In this document: in pieces, positions 23,034-64,000 of the stretch
How positions within the stretch are numbered: position 1 is the first letter of the stretch
How the letters are laid out: every line of letters begins with the position of its first letter
Origin: Protonemura montana
Taxonomy: Eukaryota > Arthropoda > Insecta > Plecoptera > Nemouridae
Direction: 5' to 3'
DNA: 64,000 nt
NCBI GenBank assembly: GCA_947568835.1
Contig: OX387602.1
Span: 1,272,570-1,336,569, forward strand
Translations under genes and position numbers: made by a program
Notes under the pieces: generated by a model
What the model saw: the letters and a program-made list of their open reading frames with translations, nothing else
Database searches by the model: none
What the model was told of the DNA's origin: nothing

Positions 23034-23535
23034 TATTTATTTGTGGTGTTTAACGACGCACTGTTTTGACATCTGGCCATGCGGCACTGGTCTAATGGCG
23101 TTGGTGAACGAGTGGATGATGATGAGGATGATGATGAACCTAACCTAGCTTAGAAGGGAGGAGGGGAAACCCGGTGCCTGCACAAAGCCTACTCTTGTCG
23201 AAGAGCACTAGGGGACCACCGGCTTAACGTCCCTTCCTAAGGACGGTACAACTCGAACAGCAGGATTCCTTCCACAAATTGATGCTGTCGAGAGGTTGAT
23301 AAGCAAGGCGAGTGAAGTTGCTGAACTAACTTTCATCCCTCCAACCTCTCTCCCGAACAGAACTGGTCATGTGTATGATGGTCACCCATCCAATACCTGA
23401 CCCAGCGCAGTGTTGCTTAACTTTCATCCCTCCAAACTCTCTCCCGAACAGAACTGGTCATGACGTGTATGATGGTCACCCATCCAATACCTGACCCAGC
23501 GCAGTGTTGCTCAACTTCGGTGACCTAACGCCGAA
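23034..23535 (-). repeat. 5S rRNA-derived composite repeat, copy B
   Basis: Read on the minus strand: two 5S-like heads (about 23390-23530) with the 5S control-region words GTTAAGCAACACTGCGCTGG and GTATTGGATGGGTGACC. Then the body follows (GGAATCCTGCTGTTCGAG, GTACCGTCCTTAGGAAGGG, ACGTTAAGCCGGTGGTCC) and a tail GTGCGTCGTTAAACACCAC. The head matches arthropod-like 5S rRNA in the segment around its internal promoter, so this is a SINE3-type (5S-derived) element in which the head has started to duplicate. Confidence 0.75.
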
Positions 23536-30167: not shown

Positions 30168-33100
30168 ATGAGTGACGCTGTGTTCACACGAACTGAAATG
30201 TTTAGCTTCATAGTACGTCTTTCTCTTTTTAGTGCTGTTTCATATTTTAGTTTAAAATGGATGGTGAATCAGCTTGATCCCACCAATAGCAAAAAGAAAA
30301 TTGCAAAAAAGAAGGTAGGTAAGTTAGGTTAAGGATCCGACCTTTGCAATTCATGACCCTTTCGAGGAAATTCATTGAATACCCATGTGGTCCTATGTTA
30401 ATGTCATTTGGATACTTACAGGCTGTAGAACAACTGTCTCGTCTTGGCATTTTGGGAAGCAAAGAGGTCAGTACCAGTCTGCAGTACCTACGCACCTAAG
30501 TAGCACCTAGGCATCTTCTTGGTACCTACGTACTTAATTGTGTAGATTATACTAAGTATATCACCCTTTACCATCGGTTGACTTGCTTAAAAGGAATAAG
30601 GTAAAAGACATGCTCTACCAGCTATCTTTCTAGAACAAAATTATGACGGCCGAAATTAACAATTTTTCGTCCTTATGGTGCCGAAATTTAAACGGTCAGT
30701 ACTTAGGGCAGTAGAACGTTTGAAATTCGGTGATGTAGTGTGGTAATATATGAAAAGTTATTTAAGATTATGACGTAGTAACATTCTTTATTTAGCAAAT
30801 TTTTTATTTTGGTCTTACATCATTACATTGGTAAATAAGTGGTAATAAAGGAAAAATATTATGACAGAGAACTGCAGAGCAATAATTGTCATGGTGAGTG
30901 AAATAGACTTCTTGTTTTGTATATAGTTGACAACTTGAAGCACTTTACTAAAAAGTTTGTCCATGATGTTTGAAATTAATCACAGGTTCTGCATGTTCTG
31001 AATTTCATGTGTATGTTAATAACATACAGCAATAACACACAATATCAGAGTTTGAAACTAATAGTAAATGTAACTAAATTATCTCGTTGTTAACTATCAT
31101 ATTAAAAAAAACGTGGCAATGACCGGCCTTGATTAAATGTCTACATTTTGCTCTAGGGCTAGCAAGTGTTGAAGTTTGTAGAAGCAGTGTTTTTTTTTTC
31201 AAGTGTAGGTGATTTTGAAAATGGTTCAATCTGTTTTGATTTTCCTGCTAGCTTATTGAAAAGAACACGAGACATAAAGTTAGCCTATTTTTTCATATTT
31301 TGTAGTAGTTGTCTTTGTTGTGTCTGGCTAAATTGCAGTTGAAGAATAGTCTGAATGTGAATCTCTGCCCAGGAAGATTTAAGTAGTTAATTATAACTCG
31401 TGAAGGGCAATCTGTAGTCTGTCCAAATAGTTTGTAGTTTCTGACTCGTACTTGTTCACCTACAACAGACAATGTGTCTTTTGCAGCTCACTGAGTATGA
31501 GATGATGATTGCCAGTCACCTCATAGACCCAGCTGATATTCCTGTTTCCTGGAAGGACATTGCTGGCCTGGAAGATGTTATCCAAGAGCTGCGAGAGACT
31601 GTGATCTTGCCCATTCAGCGAAGAGAGCTGTTTGCCGATTCACAATTAACGCAGCCCCCTAAAGGTACTCACGCTCTCAATATTTTGCTCTGAATGTTTT
31701 AGAAGGTTGCAAAATTATACAGTTTAGTTTAATATTTGATTTTTCTAGGTGTGTTGCTTCACGGTCCCCCAGGCTGTGGCAAGACGTTGATTGCCAAGGC
31801 AACAGCCCGTGAAGCAGGGACGCGGTTCATTAATCTCGATGTGTCCATACTAACGGACAAGTGGTATGGTGAGAGCCAGAAGCTCGCTGCTGCGGTCTTC
31901 TCCTTGGCTGTCAAGCTCCAGCCATGCACAATTTTCATAGATGAAATCGGTAATCTAGGAAATCAGATATATTGTGTGTTTGGAGTTCAGTCTCTGAAAA
32001 CGATAGTAATCCAATCTATTCTTGTTGTGCAACATAACTTTGTACTCAAATTTGAAGCCAGTTTTTTTTTTAATCTTTGCTCAGAAGAGTGCCATTTGGT
32101 TGTCATTTTGTATTTAAATGAGAAGAATGGCTGTTTTCAGTGGTGTTTTTTTTCTACTGGAGAAAAACAAACAAATACAAAATAAACCGATAAGTTGCGT
32201 TGCGATTACGTTTTTAACTCTTAACGGTACTTTACTTGTTATGTCCGTGTATTTTTTCTGTCTGGTAACTTTTTCAATTTTCCATGCTTTTTTGGAACAG
32301 GGTGTTAATATGGTGCATCAAATTCTGTAACATTTTGATGTAAAAATTCATTTTTGGTAACACTTTGAAGGGTGTTAGAGCTGGAGATAGGTTGGTAAAA
32401 TAATGTTGAAATCCTGTTTTGAAATCCAATAGAAACAAGGGAATAATTAAATAAAAAAATCAGAAACCTTGAGCACACTTTTGGTTGGACATCCAGAGGA
32501 AATAAGGAGAATGCAACTCACTGAAGGTGACTTGCCTGTTGGGACATAGGTCAGCTGATTTACAGCTCTATTGTCCCCAGCTTGTCATTTACTCTAGCAT
32601 CCAGCTTTTCACATTCTGCTTTCTTCTTACAATAGTCGCTCCTAAGAATATGAAAACCAAGAGACTTTCTAGCATCAAATGGCATCAAAAGTAAAGTGAC
32701 TTTATTATGGATGGGCTAACCGTGAGTTCTCACACAAATGTACATTGTGTTCCCAGACTCGTTCCTACGTTCGCGAAACTCCCAAGATCACGAGGCGACG
32801 GCGATGATGAAAGCGCAGTTTATGTCGTTGTGGGACGGTCTGATCACAGACCCCAAGTGCACTGTGATCGTGATGGGAGCAACAAATCGACCCCAGGACC
32901 TCGATCGAGCCATCTTGCGGCGCATGCCTGCCACCTTCCACATTGGCATGCCGGTCAGTAGCCATTCCTGATTGATGGAACATTTCACCTGGGAATACAT
33001 TTGCCTTTGTTGACACACGTCACCTTCCTAACAACTGAGAGGTTTGGCGTGTTGGTAACACCGGTTCTCACAAGATCATCGAAGTTAAGCAACACTGCGC

Positions 33101-36100
33101 TGGGTCAGGTATTGGATGGGTGACCACCGAATGTTTGGCGTGTTGGAAACACCGGTCCTCGTGAGATCACCGAAGTTAATTTATATTTATTTGTGGTGTT
33201 TAACGACGCACTGTGTCTAGTGCCATGCGGTACTGGTCTAATGGCGTCGGTGAATGAGTGGATGATGATGTACTTAACCTAGCCTAGAAGGGAGGAGGGG
33301 AAACCCAGTGTCGGCACGTTGCCCACTCCTGTTGAAGAGCACCAAGGGGACCACCGGCTTAACGTCCCTTCCTAAGCAGTGCTCAGTCTCCCGATGCTGC
33401 TTCAGTTTGTTTGGCTTTAGTGACTTGTTGCCGAGAGTTTTAAAACAGATAACACATAAAAGTAGTTGAATGTCATTTTGTACAGTAATTGCAAAACCAT
33501 CCTGAATGCAAGGCGGATCGTATTTGCGTTTCACGAACGTTGCTTTTTGCTTTTTAATGATGATTTTGTTATCATCGCCGGGTTCCATTTGTTTTTTTTG
33601 ATGTCGATGCACAAAAACTAAAAGCACACAAAAATCCCCGCCGCGACATTTGGAGAGAGACTGACCAGGCTTGCATCATTTGAATCATGCTTTGTTTTGT
33701 TAAACAAGAGTAGCCAGTGATTTTGTGAAACTTTCGTAAATCTGAACATTTAACCCTTTGTTAACCCTTCCATCATCCGCTTGCTGGCTTAAGCTCCGTA
33801 GTGGCAATGCCAGAAAAACCAAAAAACTGCATTTAACCGTTTTGTCGGTGCACTCAAGCGACCAAATACTCTCAGTAGCAAACATGCGTAGACATATCTC
33901 CGTGTCCATGCCTCATATCAAAGCCGCAAACGTGCCGAGGTTACAATGTTTTGTTTTGGGCTTGGATACTATTTCAGAGTATACACTTAAAGTTACTTCA
34001 CCGAATTGGAAGTAGCTCACGTAGTCCCTTTGTCTGTGCTCTCCACACACCGAATACGCTCAGTAGTGTGTGTGGGAAACCGCAGCGGGTCTGTCAGAGC
34101 AAGAACGATAAGTTCTAGGCAAGTACACATTTCATTCTCAGAACACAAGCAGAATCAAAATAACACATGAAGACGATAAAAAAAGTTGTACTTCATGCTT
34201 TTTGGGATGAAACGTTGTGGGCCACGGACACGACCTGCCGGTTGAAACCATTGCTTTACAAAATACTGCCCGGGGGCAAGGATATCTTCTCTGGATTCAC
34301 TTTTATTACACTTTCATACAACAAGTTGTTTGAAAGTGCAGTGCATTGCCAGCCTAAAATTAAAATACATGGACACAACTCTTGAGCAGGAATGTCATTT
34401 GGAGTGAAACATACAATATATAGTGGCGGTGTTTTTAATGTGTTTTTATTGCGTAACAAACAGTTCACGATTACACGTATGACGAACCTGACAATAACAA
34501 GTTTGCACACAAAAATAAGAAGCTCATTTCATCCGCACATTATCCATCTTCTTTCCTCTTATCACAACAGATTGTTCCTATCAAAGAAATCACACACAAA
34601 GGACTTACTCAGTGTAAAAATAGCTAGCTATTTCGGTAACACACGTGTACAAGGGTTAGACCTGAGAGAAAAGAATGGGTTATAATATTAATAATAATAA
34701 TAATAATAAAATATATTTTATTCTAGGAACAATACTTTACAGAGCAAGTAGGTAAGGTTTGTTATAGACTACGTCAGAATACATAAAATGAGAAAAGCAG
34801 CAGCAGTAGAATGGCATACAATAAAATAGCATAGGAAATTCAGAGTCTGTTTTCTACATGTGAATGATAATCATGTAATGAATAAGGGCATATCTTGCAG
34901 AGAAATATTTTGAGTTCAGTCTTGAAGCAGTTCTTTCCTTGGAGTGCTTTCAACGATTGTGGGAGGTCATTAAATAGTACTTGTCCCTTATAAAGCGGGC
35001 TTTTGCCATAGATTTGTATATTACTGTTGGGCCGAGCGTAGTGCATTTTGTTTCGGGTGTTGATGCGTTTGGTGCATTGTGTTGAGGACAGCGTATTGTG
35101 GGTTGTTGCGTATTAGATGGTGTTGTATATAAAGATGCCATGGAGAGTTAAAAGTCTTTGTTAGATGAAAATTGGTTCACAAGTCACTCTGGAAGATACT
35201 CCTGCTAGTGCTCTTACGATACGTTTTTGTTGCTTGAATACTTTCCCTGCCTGTTGATATGCACCCCAGAACAGTATGCCGTAGGCGAGGTAGGAATGAA
35301 CGTATGAACAGTAGTCTGTTATTACTGTAGATTCGTTGGCTATTTTTCGAAGATGTCTTAGCAGATAAGGGGCCGATGCAAGCTTTTTCATTACGTGGTT
35401 TATATGGGCAGTCCAGTTTAAAGTGTCGTTGACTGGAGGGACCAGCAACCTGGTCAGAGGACCCTTGCTCGGTCGTAGCTCCCAGTCCCAGAGGCCTAGG
35501 CTATCCTATCGCATAGCCTAGCTCTCGACTCCAAATCTAGACTGTCCAAATTGACGGCTCCAGTGACCTATATACACCTGTCCGAGCCATGCCCGACACT
35601 TACACCATTGGCTCGCTTGCCTATTTATTTTGCCCTGGTCGGCAAGTCTAAAGTCTATAGTTTGTCATTACTGCTATTGCACGCTCCATGAAAAGTGTAC
35701 TTGTCATTACTTATACAATTTCAAAACGCTTATTCAAAAATATCAAAAAGCAAAGGAAATGAGGCGCATACCTCGTGATGTACCACAACATGTTGTATGT
35801 GTTAAAAGTACAAAATCTTGTCTCCATCTTGCAGAGTGTAACACAACGGCGACAAATTCTGCGACTGATCCTAGAACACGAGCCAACAGCCGAAGACATC
35901 GACTTGAACAGACTTTCCAAACTAACGGAGACTTTTTCAGGCTCGGACCTGAGAGAGCTTTGTCGAAACGCATCTGTGTATCGCGTGCGCGACTATGTCA
36001 ACACAGACCAAGCCAACAAGGGGTAAGAAATTCTTTGCACAGAATCAAAAGAAATGTACATTTTCAAACTTCCCTTTCTTTTCAATGGCAAAAACGTTAG

Positions 36101-39194: not shown

Positions 39195-52119
<12,925 letters not shown>

Positions 52120-58000: not shown

Positions 58001-59729
58001 GAAAGGTTTCAACGTCGAGCCAGAACTTGATTAAGGGCAGGGCTCGCTGGCTTTCCAAGTATTTTATGAAGTATCCTAAAGCACCTTTATCTCTCAAGAT
58101 TTCAGAAAGAGATTTTGATAATTGCGATCGTTGACTTATTTTTATTTTACCTGCAAAGAGACAAAAATATTATCTTCATTGAGATCACAAGAATTAAAAA
58201 AAAGATAGAAACTGCACAAGGAATACTTTCATCTGCATGAATTGTAAATAAAGAGTAGCCTTATTTCAAAACTTAAATGACAGTAAAATTTGCTTCTGTA
58301 TGTTTGTGAAGAGGGAAGGGGCATAAAGGTGAAATGATTTATAAAAACCCACACTATTGTCTGGCCTCCTCAATCTGTTGAAAATATGCATTTGCAGTTG
58401 GTACATTGCACTTTGTCTTCTAAATAAGCTTTTAATAAACTTTCTATGACATCCACCTCAACTTTTAAGTAAAGTTTAAATGCATATTTATGCAAGAGAA
58501 GAGATGAAAATAGCATTTGGAAACTTATGAACCGTAATAATATTAATAAAATAAATAAAAATGACTACTAATGGAAATTTGGGACATTTAAAGAAACGTC
58601 TCTCGTGGTATTGGCACAGGTGCTATAAAACCAGATGTAAATCTAGCATTATTTTTGTAGGTCTGATAGGACTAGGGCTTGGATTTATATTTAATTACAT
58701 ATTGTTTGTGTGATACACAAACAATATGCTCATTAATATTTCTTCACGAATCTCGTCTTTGTAATCGTTTTGACACTGTCGATGTCGAATATTTTCGAAT
58801 ATTTTTACGATAAATACATATTTTTTTATTTTTACATTTAAAGCACATATTTTGCCTCTTTTATATGAAATAACTTCATTTACAAGGATCAAAATATTTT
58901 TTCTAGAAAAACTAGGATTATTGAATGTCCATAGCAGAAATTCTGGGAAACCTGTTATTGACAGTATGAGGCAGCTAGGTTTGTGACTTCCTCGAAGTTC
59001 GGGGGTAGGTATAGTATCCAGTTAGTGGTATTTTAGGAAAAGTTCTGCTACAGTGACTTTATTTGAGCAAAAGCGGCTTTAGCGAACTGAAATTGGTGCT
59101 GAACAAAAATCCAGGGTTTGCAAAATTCCAACAGTTCATGGAAATTCTGGCAAATGACGGTCACATGCAACCAAAGGAGGAATCATTTTCTATGTGTGAA
59201 GTTGCAAACTTTAAATATGCACCAATAACGTCCTGTGACGTTGAGCGTAGTTTTTCGCAGTTTAAAAACGTATTGGCCAAACACCGGCATTTTTTTAAGT
59301 TTGATAACTTGAAGATGTGGATTGTAGTGCACTTCAACGGGGGCATTTCAAATTTGAACATACCACACACTTTTTGGCGAGTTATTCAAGTCATTTTCAA
59401 GTCATTTGGCGAGTCAATAATTTTCAGTTTTAATTGAATATAATAGCCCTTTTTAAGCAAATATAAAATACATATTTCTCTAAGTTGAGCAAATATAAAT
59501 CCAAGCCCTATTAATGATACAATAGTTAGAACTGGTATAAGCATTGCACTCCAGGACTGACCAGTGACACTAGCAACCATTTCTTCATCACTGAAGTCGG
59601 AAAGAGGCCCAGCTGATCGTTGAGAATATTTCTCACGCTGAATCGGTGATTTCTCAGCAGGTTTCACGCTTTTGGATGGTGATGCTGGAGCTTTGTTTCC
59701 TGCCTTGTCTTTTTTCCCCGAAGTTAGAC
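55054..59729 (-). CDS. AKAP10: A-kinase anchoring protein 10 (D-AKAP2), 5' end incomplete
   Basis: AKAP10 binds PKA regulatory subunits and Rab-type GTPases and is found at mitochondria and endosomes. Nine exons were joined in phase: 59562-59729, 57186-58150, 56972-57108, 56727-56871, 56500-56608, 56197-56362, 55485-55561, 55235-55287 and 55054-55149, about 638 codons. Order: a basic, Ser-rich N-terminal linker (KKDKAGNKAPASPSKS); a first RGS domain split by a long insertion (ALGYFIKYLESQRALPLIKF, then FHLMDSEHFNLFLRSDYH); a second RGS domain (YMEQEGNETLVEFWIAAVHF, NDAMILYDKYFS); the conserved FGRINHMGRF segment. The C-terminal PKA-binding amphipathic helix is KEEVAWQIAEMIVKDI. The first coding exon, which must end in phase 1, is not established. 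A hAT-like element fills most of the intron between the first two exons. Confidence 0.92.
58673..59510 (+). mobile_element. hAT-like element with terminal inverted repeats in AKAP10 intron
   Basis: Perfect 20-bp inverted ends: TAGGGCTTGGATTTATATTT at 58673-58692 and its complement at 59491-59510. Inside, a plus-strand open frame (about 59063-59437) holds the C-terminal dimerisation region of a hAT transposase (YAPITSCDVERSFSQFKNVL, then NLKMWIVVHFN). The rest of the transposase is missing, so the element is a non-autonomous remnant of about 840 bp. I do not see a clear 8-bp target duplication. Its right end lies about 50 bases from the AKAP10 exon at 59562. Confidence 0.8.
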
Positions 59730-61808
59730 CTAACAACAACATAAATTCAGCTTTAATTTTAGAATGAGGTTATTTTTGATTATGTTTTTAGACTCATGTC
59801 TACTTTTTCTGACATAATTTGTATTTTATTTTGTTGTTTATGGTCCATAAATCACAGTAAGAATATTTGCAAACAATGCATCAGTAGAATTGAGTTGAAG
59901 CAACAGTGTTGTTGTTGTCAACTAGTTTGGAGGCAGCTTAACCAGCTTGCCTTAGTTTAAGATCATATTACATAATAAGTATATAATAATGTTGTTTGGG
60001 GATTAATCTCAAATGTGCTGCTACCATAGAACAGTAAGTTAGGTTTGCAGTACAATCTACCAAGGCCAGTTGCAGCGACCCAAAAAATCACTCACAGGTT
60101 CAAGGTCGGTCACTAATGAATTCCTTACATCTACCCCAATATGTATACGATCAGTTACTCGATTAAGAAGAAATCACACAAACCTGATTTCTTCCAAAAT
60201 TGTAGCATCATTAATTTCTTAATAGATATGACATTGGCACTGACATTGATAGAAATGGTATCTGAAAATTCTTTATGTGTTTACACCTGTTGTTTTAGTT
60301 GTCCTTGCTCTCAAAAGGAAAACTTTATTTACTGAATCTCGTTCCCACATAATGGTATCATATGTAAAAGCTCAGCTTGAAATACGCATCTGTAAATTCA
60401 CCGAAGTCACACGTCGATGAAGCCAAGTGGACTTGCCTCCCACCATGTTCACAGGTTATGGAAGGAGCTGTCAGCGTCAGCTGTAGTCAGCTGTGCTATG
60501 CAGAATCGATTCTATATAAACGAGAGCGCAAATTTGTTTTTCAATTGCTTTCATTTCATTCCAAACAAAACCAACTGATTGATTTCTTCGTTAAACTGTA
60601 CTTTTAGTAAGGGAAAGCCCTTCTTGGTCAAATACAATAAATACGGCACTATTTTACAAAATAGCAGGCCGCATTTAGTTTCGACTGGAATCAAGAATAA
60701 TCCAAAAGTCCCACCATAGAAAAAATACTTAATGGTCCCACCCTCACATTAAACAATCCCTAGACTTATTATTTGAACAAAATTGCACTGGAAATGTATC
60801 TAAGCGCGAAAGGACTAGCAAGCAGATACATTCTCCATTTCAGTTGTTTGATAAAATATTTATTTGTGAACAGTTTTTTGCAAGGAAGTTACATCTCCAA
60901 AGTGTGTAAACATTGGACAGATTATCAAAAGCACACACAATATAACAGGTGGCAGTTAAGCTAGGAAGGCAATTTAGAAGGCACAACGTTGAGACATTTT
61001 ATCACAAGCCCTAGTCTTACTTATCTCTGTTTTCACTTCCATACTTGCCAATTAACTGCACATTAACTTATTAATTATTACAAGAGAATACTCAAAATAA
61101 AGCCTTTGCTTGTTATTGCTTATGAGCTGGAGAAAGGTTAATAATGATAACAGTCAATATTTCTGAGAAAGCAACACGAATAAAACAATATGTGCTATAC
61201 AAAATAGTGAAAAATAAAATTGTATCTCTGAAGAACACAAATCTTAGAAACATTAACCAATGACAATACCTAATGTAAGGTTACTCATCAGTTAAAATTT
61301 GAACTGAAGGTACCATTTTTGCAATGTCCAGTTAAAAAGAAAACTGACCGCAAATGACTCATCCTAATTCTATTTGTACCTCGACATACAGCTCTGTTTT
61401 ATCTGAACATTGCAAGAATGGTCTATAACCTGAAAGATTTATTATCCATAACAACTGGCTGGAAAAATATTCTTCAACTTAATAAATCTGTCTTTAAAAA
61501 GTTACATAATCAACATACACGACAAGGAACTAGCATACCTACGTGAAAACTTGCACTCCAAATTTGTTCCTGACCAACAATCGGTTTAGGACAAATAGAA
61601 AAGGCACCCATGTGAAATACTTATGAGTTATGAGCACACAATGTAACTTCTTGGAAGACAAGGCTGTGGCAACGTATTCCATGAAACCCTGTGCATTTGT
61701 GCTGAATAAAGATTTGTGCTGATGGGTGAGTATATGACAGTTATAATGAATATTCCTATTTTATGTTTGTTTGTGATTGTGCTGATTCTTATCAGCAGGC
61801 ACTGGGAT
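59730..61808. other. Region upstream of the first recognised AKAP10 exon
   Basis: Mostly AT-rich without clear repeats. One possible AKAP10 first exon is 61539-61611 on the minus strand: ATG followed by 24 codons, ending in phase 1 before a GTATGC donor. Its product (MGAFSICPKPIVG) does not resemble known AKAP10 N-termini, so it is only a candidate. Confidence 0.3.
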
Positions 61809-64000
61809 TCAGAACTTGTATTGATGGGAGATGTGTCTGATAAGCCGTTCGAATGCGTTCTCCTCAAACTTCTGCCGCCACATATACTCGTGCAGCGCAA
61901 TAGTGGCCTGGCGGTCATTCATGTGGACGTCTTGGATGCTCTCACAGATCGAGACCACGTTCTGCCAGATGGTTTCTAGGGAGCCGCAAACAAAATACAT
62001 CGTAAGCAGTGAGCCACAAAAATATCAATTTCCAAAGTGGTTTTGTGCCTATAAAGACATGTAGACATGAAGTGATCTTACTTCAGCTGTAACTGTGGAT
62101 ACAAAAATAAAACTGGTAAGTGATTCCAAAAGGCTCGTATGAATAGCAGGGAACAGATAGAGATAGAAGTACACTCACTTACCGAAAGTAAAAAAGCCGG
62201 ATGCGAAATATTTTGCTGCTAGATTTTCACTTATAGTAAGTTGCTTATCTTTCCTAGCCTTTGTTATCCCTATCCTTCAAAACCCAGCAACACGAGGCAA
62301 TGGTAGCTGCACTTAAATATCTTGCTCAATACAATTCTTCAAACCCAAACAATTTGCAAGCTCTGCACTTGTGTTACACTGGTAGACAGGGAGGATCGTG
62401 GCAAATTATGAGAGGGTCTTAAGGCCTCTTTTACATTGTGTTTAGCTACAACACCATTAAGAGTTAAACAAATAAAAGCACTGCTAAATTTTAACCATCT
62501 GTTTGGAATGATTCAATGCATCTGTTTGTTCTACAATAACAGAGCTAAAAAGGACATGACCCGTGTGGCGGTCTCACCGAGGTTGTCACGCAGGCGTCGT
62601 GTGCCAGGTGCATCAAGTGTGGCCAGTTGCTCTGCGCTGGACACGCTGGCGTAGGCTGGCAGTTCTCGTAGAGCTTCCACGGAGCAACAGCGACTGCGGT
62701 AGTTGCCAACCAGCGCCGACCCAGGTAGGATATGACGACGCACTACTAGCAACGCATCTTCTACCAACCCCGTCACGGCAGCGCCATGCACAGCCTTGCT
62801 CGACCGCTCAAAACCGGGCTACATAGAGAAACAAACTTCACTGATAGGACTGCCAATCCAAGGTATAGGGTATGGTGCAAGCATGGATGTGTTAACTCGC
62901 TTTTGAGACTTTTCATGGTCAAAAGATCTCCATCAATGTTAACCTCAACGATTGATATATTCGTAACGATATTCAAAAGCGAGTAACCTACAAGAAATAT
63001 TGAAATTAAATTTCATACAACAGTGGCTCCACTTAACGGGGTGTTCCAGTACTCTGCATTTTTGTCGGTAAGGTAGTCATTTGACGGGTATCTTTCACGC
63101 AGAAACTGTAACATTAATGTTCTGCCTCTACCTATAACCTGCACTCAACGGTATAAGGCATGGTGCAAGCATGAATGTGTTCAGAGGTTGGCACCTTCCA
63201 TAGGAGTCAGGGATTGCAATTTACCGTGGCAAATGCAGCCGATTTCCTACCATTACTAACATCAAAGCAAATGTGGCAACCCTCAAACTTACGTCAGGCT
63301 TGACAATCTGAAGCCACGTCAACGGCGGAAAGACGCTGAGGTCGGAGAGACAGAGTATGAACTGCTGCTGGTGCCGTGCCTTTTTTTTGGTAGGGCCAGT
63401 AGTGGAGTCGAGAGCTGGCGGCACCATGCAGCCATCAGGATAAGTGTCTACCAGCACAACAGAATTGGGCCCACCCAGCTGCCACTGCCTTCCAAACTCA
63501 AGCAAGTGACAGCTTGTTACTTCACTGCAACGAGTGTAGATGCGTTTCATCACGTCTGCTTTTACTGATATTCCATGCTCTAGAAAATTGTGATAGAAAT
63601 AGAAACAATAGAATTAGAAGACCATTCTTTCCAGAAAAGAAGAAACGAAGCTTGGATTTTTAAGCATACCATTCCGAATGTTGTTTGCCAACAACTCATA
63701 GGGCAAACTTCTACACCAGCCCATCATTACCTCCATAATTATTTTTAGTTCACATTTAATTTTAAGAAAGAAAGAGCCATCTCTTATGATAACTTTTTCA
63801 AGGCATTTTCCGCAAAGCCAGATGAACTTGTCTGTAATGCGAGATTGGCTAGTCCAAACCGCCCAACGGTTGTTGCATTGGGGGTTTTTACATTGGACAC
63901 CTGACTTTAACAAGGTTTCCTCTTTTAACCATTGTACAAGCTCGCCCTCATGTCCACCACATAACTTTGGGCGAACCACAACGTTGTAGAAATCAAATGA
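61809..64000 (-). CDS. ISXO2/Merlin-type transposase-derived gene, 5' partial
   Basis: Four exons join in phase: 63670-64000 (open at the window edge), 63293-63579, 62578-62818 and 61809-61975, about 342 codons. Exon 1 has a zinc ribbon (CKNPQC and WLCGKC) followed by IRDGSFF, the layout of ISXO2-like transposases. Exon 2 holds HGISVKADVMKRIY and LGGPNSVVLVDTYPDG, matching the region of the first catalytic Asp. Exon 3 has HILPGSALVGNYRS, where the family usually has a second acidic residue (S-D-x-W type); here it reads V-G-N-Y. The third acidic position appears kept in LETIW at the exon 3/4 join. Exon 4 ends EYMWRQKFEENAFERLIRHI, the usual C-terminus. An intact spliced frame with a damaged catalytic centre suggests a domesticated gene; a decaying element is the alternative. 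Its true start is outside the window. Confidence 0.72.
62371..62460 (+). repeat. Dispersed repeat, copy 2
   Basis: Counterpart of 48705-48800, here in the last intron of the Merlin-derived gene. Confidence 0.5.

Follow-up and report, generated by a model that had tools for sequence, protein, structure and literature searches.

The window, by which we mean the whole 64-kb stretch of DNA analysed, contains NFU1-, mitochondrial-carrier-, AAA- and RGS-domain genes, PTEN and, running off its end, a four-exon gene on the minus strand whose product resembles Merlin/ISXO2 transposases (Table 1). The neighbour that the initial annotation called AKAP10 does show RGS-domain similarity, and the label rests on that similarity only. 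A fragment of RACK1 is also present, with ribosomal RACK1 chains as its best single-stretch matches in the PDB; higher scores, due to repeats, went to a repeat protein and to designed WD40 proteins. This set of genes is suggestive of an animal source. Three tandem arrays share a unit of 91-94 nt, which by eye we take to be 5S-rRNA-like; at gathering score, Rfam placed 5S_rRNA at one site only, listed in Table 1. A further fragment, presumably reverse-transcriptase-like and of the non-LTR type as judged by eye, had no Pfam match at E ≤ 0.1. On the strand opposite the RGS-domain gene lies an open stretch that weakly matches the hAT dimerisation domain (C-terminus), below the Pfam cut-off.

Table 1. 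Coordinates of the Merlin-like gene and of other features in the window
Feature	Position	Strand	Remarks
Exon 1	63670..64000	minus	5' end beyond window; zinc-ribbon-like Cys and GSFF
Intron 1	63580..63669	minus	90 nt, GTATGC...TTTCTAG
Exon 2	63293..63579	minus	LGGPNSVVLVD including D155, first catalytic-type aspartate
D155 codon	63446-63448	minus	exon 2
Intron 2	62819..63292	minus	474 nt; holds direct repeat and short palindrome
Direct repeat, intron 2	62854-62893 and 63142-63181		40 nt, 85% alike
Short palindrome, intron 2	62895-62984		
Exon 3	62578..62818	minus	ILPGSALVGN; N245 at the second catalytic position
N245 codon AAC	62702-62704	minus	column is D in 19/19 prokaryotic IS1595 proteins
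Intron 3	61976..62577	minus	602 nt, GTGAGA...CTCCCTAG
Exon 4 with TGA stop	61809..61975	minus	ETIW and HEYMWRQKF C-terminal block
TGA stop	61809-61811	minus	
AATAAA, poly(A)-signal-like hexamer	61438..61443	minus	~366 nt downstream of stop
Palindromic element, MITE-like	61312-61422		111 nt; 26-nt arms, 88% complementary; downstream of gene
hAT-like open stretch	59057-59434		E 0.009
Tandem array	44433-44653		2.4 copies
Tandem array	43721-44340		6.8 copies
Reverse-transcriptase-like fragment	35161-35505		
5S_rRNA (Rfam)	33034-33167		
Tandem array	23327-23517		2.1 copies

The exons of the Merlin-like gene join into a single continuous frame of 341 codons plus the stop, without any internal stop, across three introns with GT-AG borders and compatible phases (1, 0 and 1). 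The four-exon spliced open frame described in the initial annotation is thereby confirmed as real. In each of the five remaining frames the joined exons contain 10 to 21 stops, and a poly(A)-signal-like hexamer follows the gene. As the window ends within the gene, its start codon, a possible upstream exon and the upstream flank lie out of view, and no start codon was found upstream of the known blocks within the part that is visible, up to the edge at position 64000. Codon-usage log-odds failed to tell even the reference genes apart from background, and this measure therefore says nothing on the gene.

The exon model is sequence-based and its splice sites were picked by eye, which could lead one to suspect that an old pseudogene or a set of chance exons had been stitched together. 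When each exon was shuffled at constant composition, none of 2000 sets was stop-free and the mean was 16.8 stops, against zero in the 341 codons observed. Moreover, whichever of the three introns is retained, the reading frame runs into a stop within 24 codons, and the blocks typical of the transposase family occur in order along the joined exons. An artefact of this kind is, in our judgement, very improbable.

The translated exons contain the zinc-ribbon-like stretch, GSFF, LGGP..VLVD and MWR..F C-terminus that had been named earlier, here reading CKNPQC...CGKC, GSFF, LGGP..VVLVD and MWRQKF, together with LETIW. In exon 1, the zinc-ribbon-like pattern C-x4-C ... C-x2-C is formed by C37, C42, C63 and C66. 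The D-D-E triad is incomplete, with D155 and E287 kept and the second acid gone. In the MAFFT alignment, made without manual placement, the three catalytic columns hold D155, N245 and E287; hhalign sets N245 against the second D and D155 against the residue following the first D; in BLASTP, D155 meets the first D and, after a gap, R248 and not N245 falls opposite the second. Under all three methods the second catalytic position is non-acidic, as the initial annotation had stated from the GNY found there, while this column and the first are D in all 19 of the prokaryotic IS1595 proteins aligned.

The local context aligns without any gap, PGSALVGN in the window protein standing against PGSILVTD in one relative (L009), and GNY against T/S-D-x in the relatives generally. 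The codon AAC of N245 is one transition away from GAC. The codon of E287 (G|AA) straddles intron 3, taking one base from the end of exon 3 and two from the start of exon 4, and this residue thus requires intron 3 to be removed as in the exon model. The first aspartate and the second position are 89 residues apart, compared with 57-82 in the 19 relatives. Other often conserved columns are altered as well (after the E, K is replaced by V and R by S, with nothing N-H-like between), although constancy among the 19 is limited to the two D columns.

A DDE enzyme that has lost the second acid should no longer be capable of two-metal cutting. A nuclease that is still active, with another residue or the asparagine itself taking the place of the second acid, would be in keeping with the variability of the third catalytic column, which is E in 15, H in three and N in one of the 19 prokaryotic relatives. 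The second column shows no such tolerance, being D throughout, and we give this explanation hardly any credence.

Matches to family libraries were sought with Pfam at a limit of E 10, but its filters discard most matches above about 0.1. There was no match to PF12762 (DDE_Tnp_IS1595) with the whole protein or exons 2-4, and none to PF12760 (Zn_ribbon_IS1595) with the whole protein or exon 1. As controls, PF12762 matched four of four prokaryotic IS1595 proteins at 2.1e-20 or better and PF12760 matched three of the four. NCBIfam yielded no transposase model for the whole protein, and a PDB sequence search with it yielded no match. Sub-cut-off Pfam lines were taken as chance, namely GKAP for the whole protein (E 0.055) and GKAP (0.027), CapR (0.13), CoiA_N (0.16) and HEAT_PSME4_mid (0.19) for exon 1.

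Profiles built from prokaryotic relatives gave borderline or negative results. In hmmsearch with a 19-protein IS1595 profile, the window protein ranked 5th of 2001 sequences (itself and 2000 shuffles) with E 1. Among the window's 950 six-frame stretches of 35 or more residues, the same profile ranked exon 1 first (E 0.03); exon 4 followed in twelfth place (E 7.6), and the exon 2 and exon 3 stretches were absent from the list at E ≤ 20. With hhalign the prokaryotic profile alone scored 17.8, a value exceeded by at least 5 of 100 shuffles, the highest of which reached 21.0. A home-made PSSM, whose outcome varies with gap costs and mode, was run in four settings with 60 shuffles each; two settings placed the protein above all shuffles (z 4.33 and 2.76) and two did not (z 0.73 and 1.95). 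Searches of other collections were negative: tblastn of the window protein in plasmids returned two matches only, at chance level (E 6), and no relative turned up in IMG/VR when it was scanned with the window protein, with an unsourced probe sequence and with an unsourced three-row alignment, nor in phage records searched with the unsourced probe. When genome contigs were scanned with one prokaryotic relative, a single locus came up, encoding the same protein in another Novosphingobium. A regular expression for the chain of motifs matched none of 200,000 shuffles and none of the 19 fetched relatives either; having been written post hoc with the window protein in view, it is not evidence.

A clearer relationship appears with an animal-type ISXO2 probe, an unsourced sequence that was written out when the window protein was already known. 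This probe itself matches PF12762 (5.3e-26) as well as 66 plasmid records, many of them annotated as IS1595 transposases. In BLASTP, probe and window protein share 21% identity across 270 aligned columns (E 5e-9). In phmmer the full sequence obtained 5.7e-6 and its best single domain just 0.019; the best full-sequence value among 2000 shuffles was 0.04. When the probe was added to the prokaryotic profile, hhalign scored 35.6, a level that none of 100 shuffles approached (19.4 at most). The order of blocks is likewise shared with the family, running from the Cys pairs through GS-x-F, GGP..D, PGS..(D/N) and E..W to E-F/Y-x-W-R.

A host gene combining a zinc ribbon with some other fold, and resembling ISXO2 by chance, would explain why no family library matched and why the profile tests made without the animal-type probe were borderline or negative. 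The motif blocks would then have fallen into family order by accident, and the scores obtained once a single animal-type member is added, which top every shuffle in both phmmer and hhalign, would be fortuitous too; we find such a coincidence improbable. Remote descent from ISXO2/IS1595/Merlin transposases is likely, a conclusion that leans on the unsourced probe. The ancestry proposed in the initial annotation comes out clearly with this probe and weakly with the prokaryotic relatives only (17.8 in hhalign, E 1 in hmmsearch).

Merlin elements carry terminal inverted repeats beginning with GG and produce target-site duplications of 8-9 bp (PMC8101967). Since one flank of the gene lies beyond the window, absence of such repeats is not judgeable here, and the argument for domestication that the initial annotation drew from missing repeats fails. 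Its other two arguments, an open spliced frame that has been kept and a catalytic residue that has been lost, both hold for the four-exon gene. No second copy was found in the 64-kb window, where no other match was better than E 0.73. Intron 2 contains a direct repeat and a short palindrome, possibly an old insertion, and neither has further copies in the window. Downstream of the gene there is a MITE-like palindromic element, whose end likewise has no further copy in the window.

The main rival to domestication is an ordinary, divergent Merlin-like transposon with introns in its transposase gene, of which this copy recently died by one D-to-N change. A single transition from GAC to AAC would suffice at N245, and there would have been too little time for stops to gather. 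Divergence can also accumulate while an element is still active, terminal inverted repeats are possible given that one side of the gene is in view, and another transposon-like piece, the weak hAT C-terminus (E 0.009), lies nearby. A recently dead copy fits less well with the lack of a PF12762 match where all four prokaryotic relatives are matched so strongly, and with the changes in further often conserved columns, though only the D columns are constant; the lack of a second copy in 64 kb is weak evidence in the same direction. Element transposases normally keep a visible domain, as do 84 of 84 complete microsporidian Merlin transposases (PMC4202319), whereas the window protein shows none. We consider a recently dead transposon unlikely.

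Domestication is compatible with the data, as judged from sequence, and falls short of proof. An open multi-exon frame combined with a sequence that has drifted past the reach of Pfam would be the pattern expected of a long-domesticated gene. It seems somewhat probable to us that this is a catalytically dead host gene descended from a Merlin/ISXO2-type transposase, perhaps with DNA-binding ability. The fuller proposition, a multi-exon animal host gene of Merlin/ISXO2 origin that is catalytically dead and kept by selection as a DNA-binding protein, is held more tentatively and falls slightly short of probable.

Under domestication, a Merlin/ISXO2-type transposase gene would have become a host gene that carried, or gained, spliceosomal introns. 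The second catalytic aspartate would have been lost by a D-to-N change, with which two-metal cutting and joining of DNA should be gone, and the zinc-ribbon-like N-terminus and a presumed RNase-H-like core would have stayed open. The likeliest reason for the preserved frame, we propose, is that binding of DNA or chromatin has persisted; the protein could, for example, regulate transcription or keep related elements repressed.

The piggyBac, Harbinger, P and hAT superfamilies, among others, have given rise to domesticated transposases. Genes derived from piggyBac are documented (PMC3902484), while for Merlin the literature covered here holds suggestions of domestication (PMC8101967) and no demonstration. 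An intact, spliced and catalytically dead Merlin-like animal gene would be a concrete candidate for it, and if the reading is true, Merlin joins the transposon superfamilies that have given rise to animal host genes. As standard domain models miss the window protein, similar genes may be under-counted. In the literature searched, with subscription journals mostly outside it, no description of a Merlin-derived spliced animal host gene was found. Merlin elements are present in the aphid mobilome; such domesticated proteins as the available text of that study names belong to other superfamilies (PMC9783078).

The window gene differs from Merlin/IS1595 transposases (PF12762, PF12760), which are visible to Pfam, have an acid at the second position and keep the shorter spacing given above, as well as in having three introns. 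An N-terminal zinc ribbon is missing from most described Merlins and is present in a few nematode proteins (PMC8101967). Lopes et al. (2021) proposed domestication of Merlin in some species, mainly protists, and reported open Merlin frames, some with a DDE motif that is not conserved (PMC8101967). In the available text of that work, these conserved Merlin-related genes retain a detectable DDE_Tnp_IS1595 domain, which the window protein does not, and the word "intron" appears nowhere in the main text, whereas the window gene has three.

Parallels are also seen in piggyBac, a different superfamily. PGBD3, a human piggyBac-derived protein, has one D-to-N change in its triad, like the window protein, and is reported to have kept the ability to bind its terminal repeat (PMC3902484). 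PGBD5, a domesticated piggyBac gene conserved in chordates, has 7 exons and resembles the window gene in spreading its transposase domain over several exons and in having lost the catalytic motif (PMC3902484). According to the same source, PGBD5 does not bind DNA or chromatin, and a dead transposase therefore need not be a DNA binder. A single D-to-N change has its precedent in PGBD3, and a spliced gene encoding a dead transposase has one in PGBD5.
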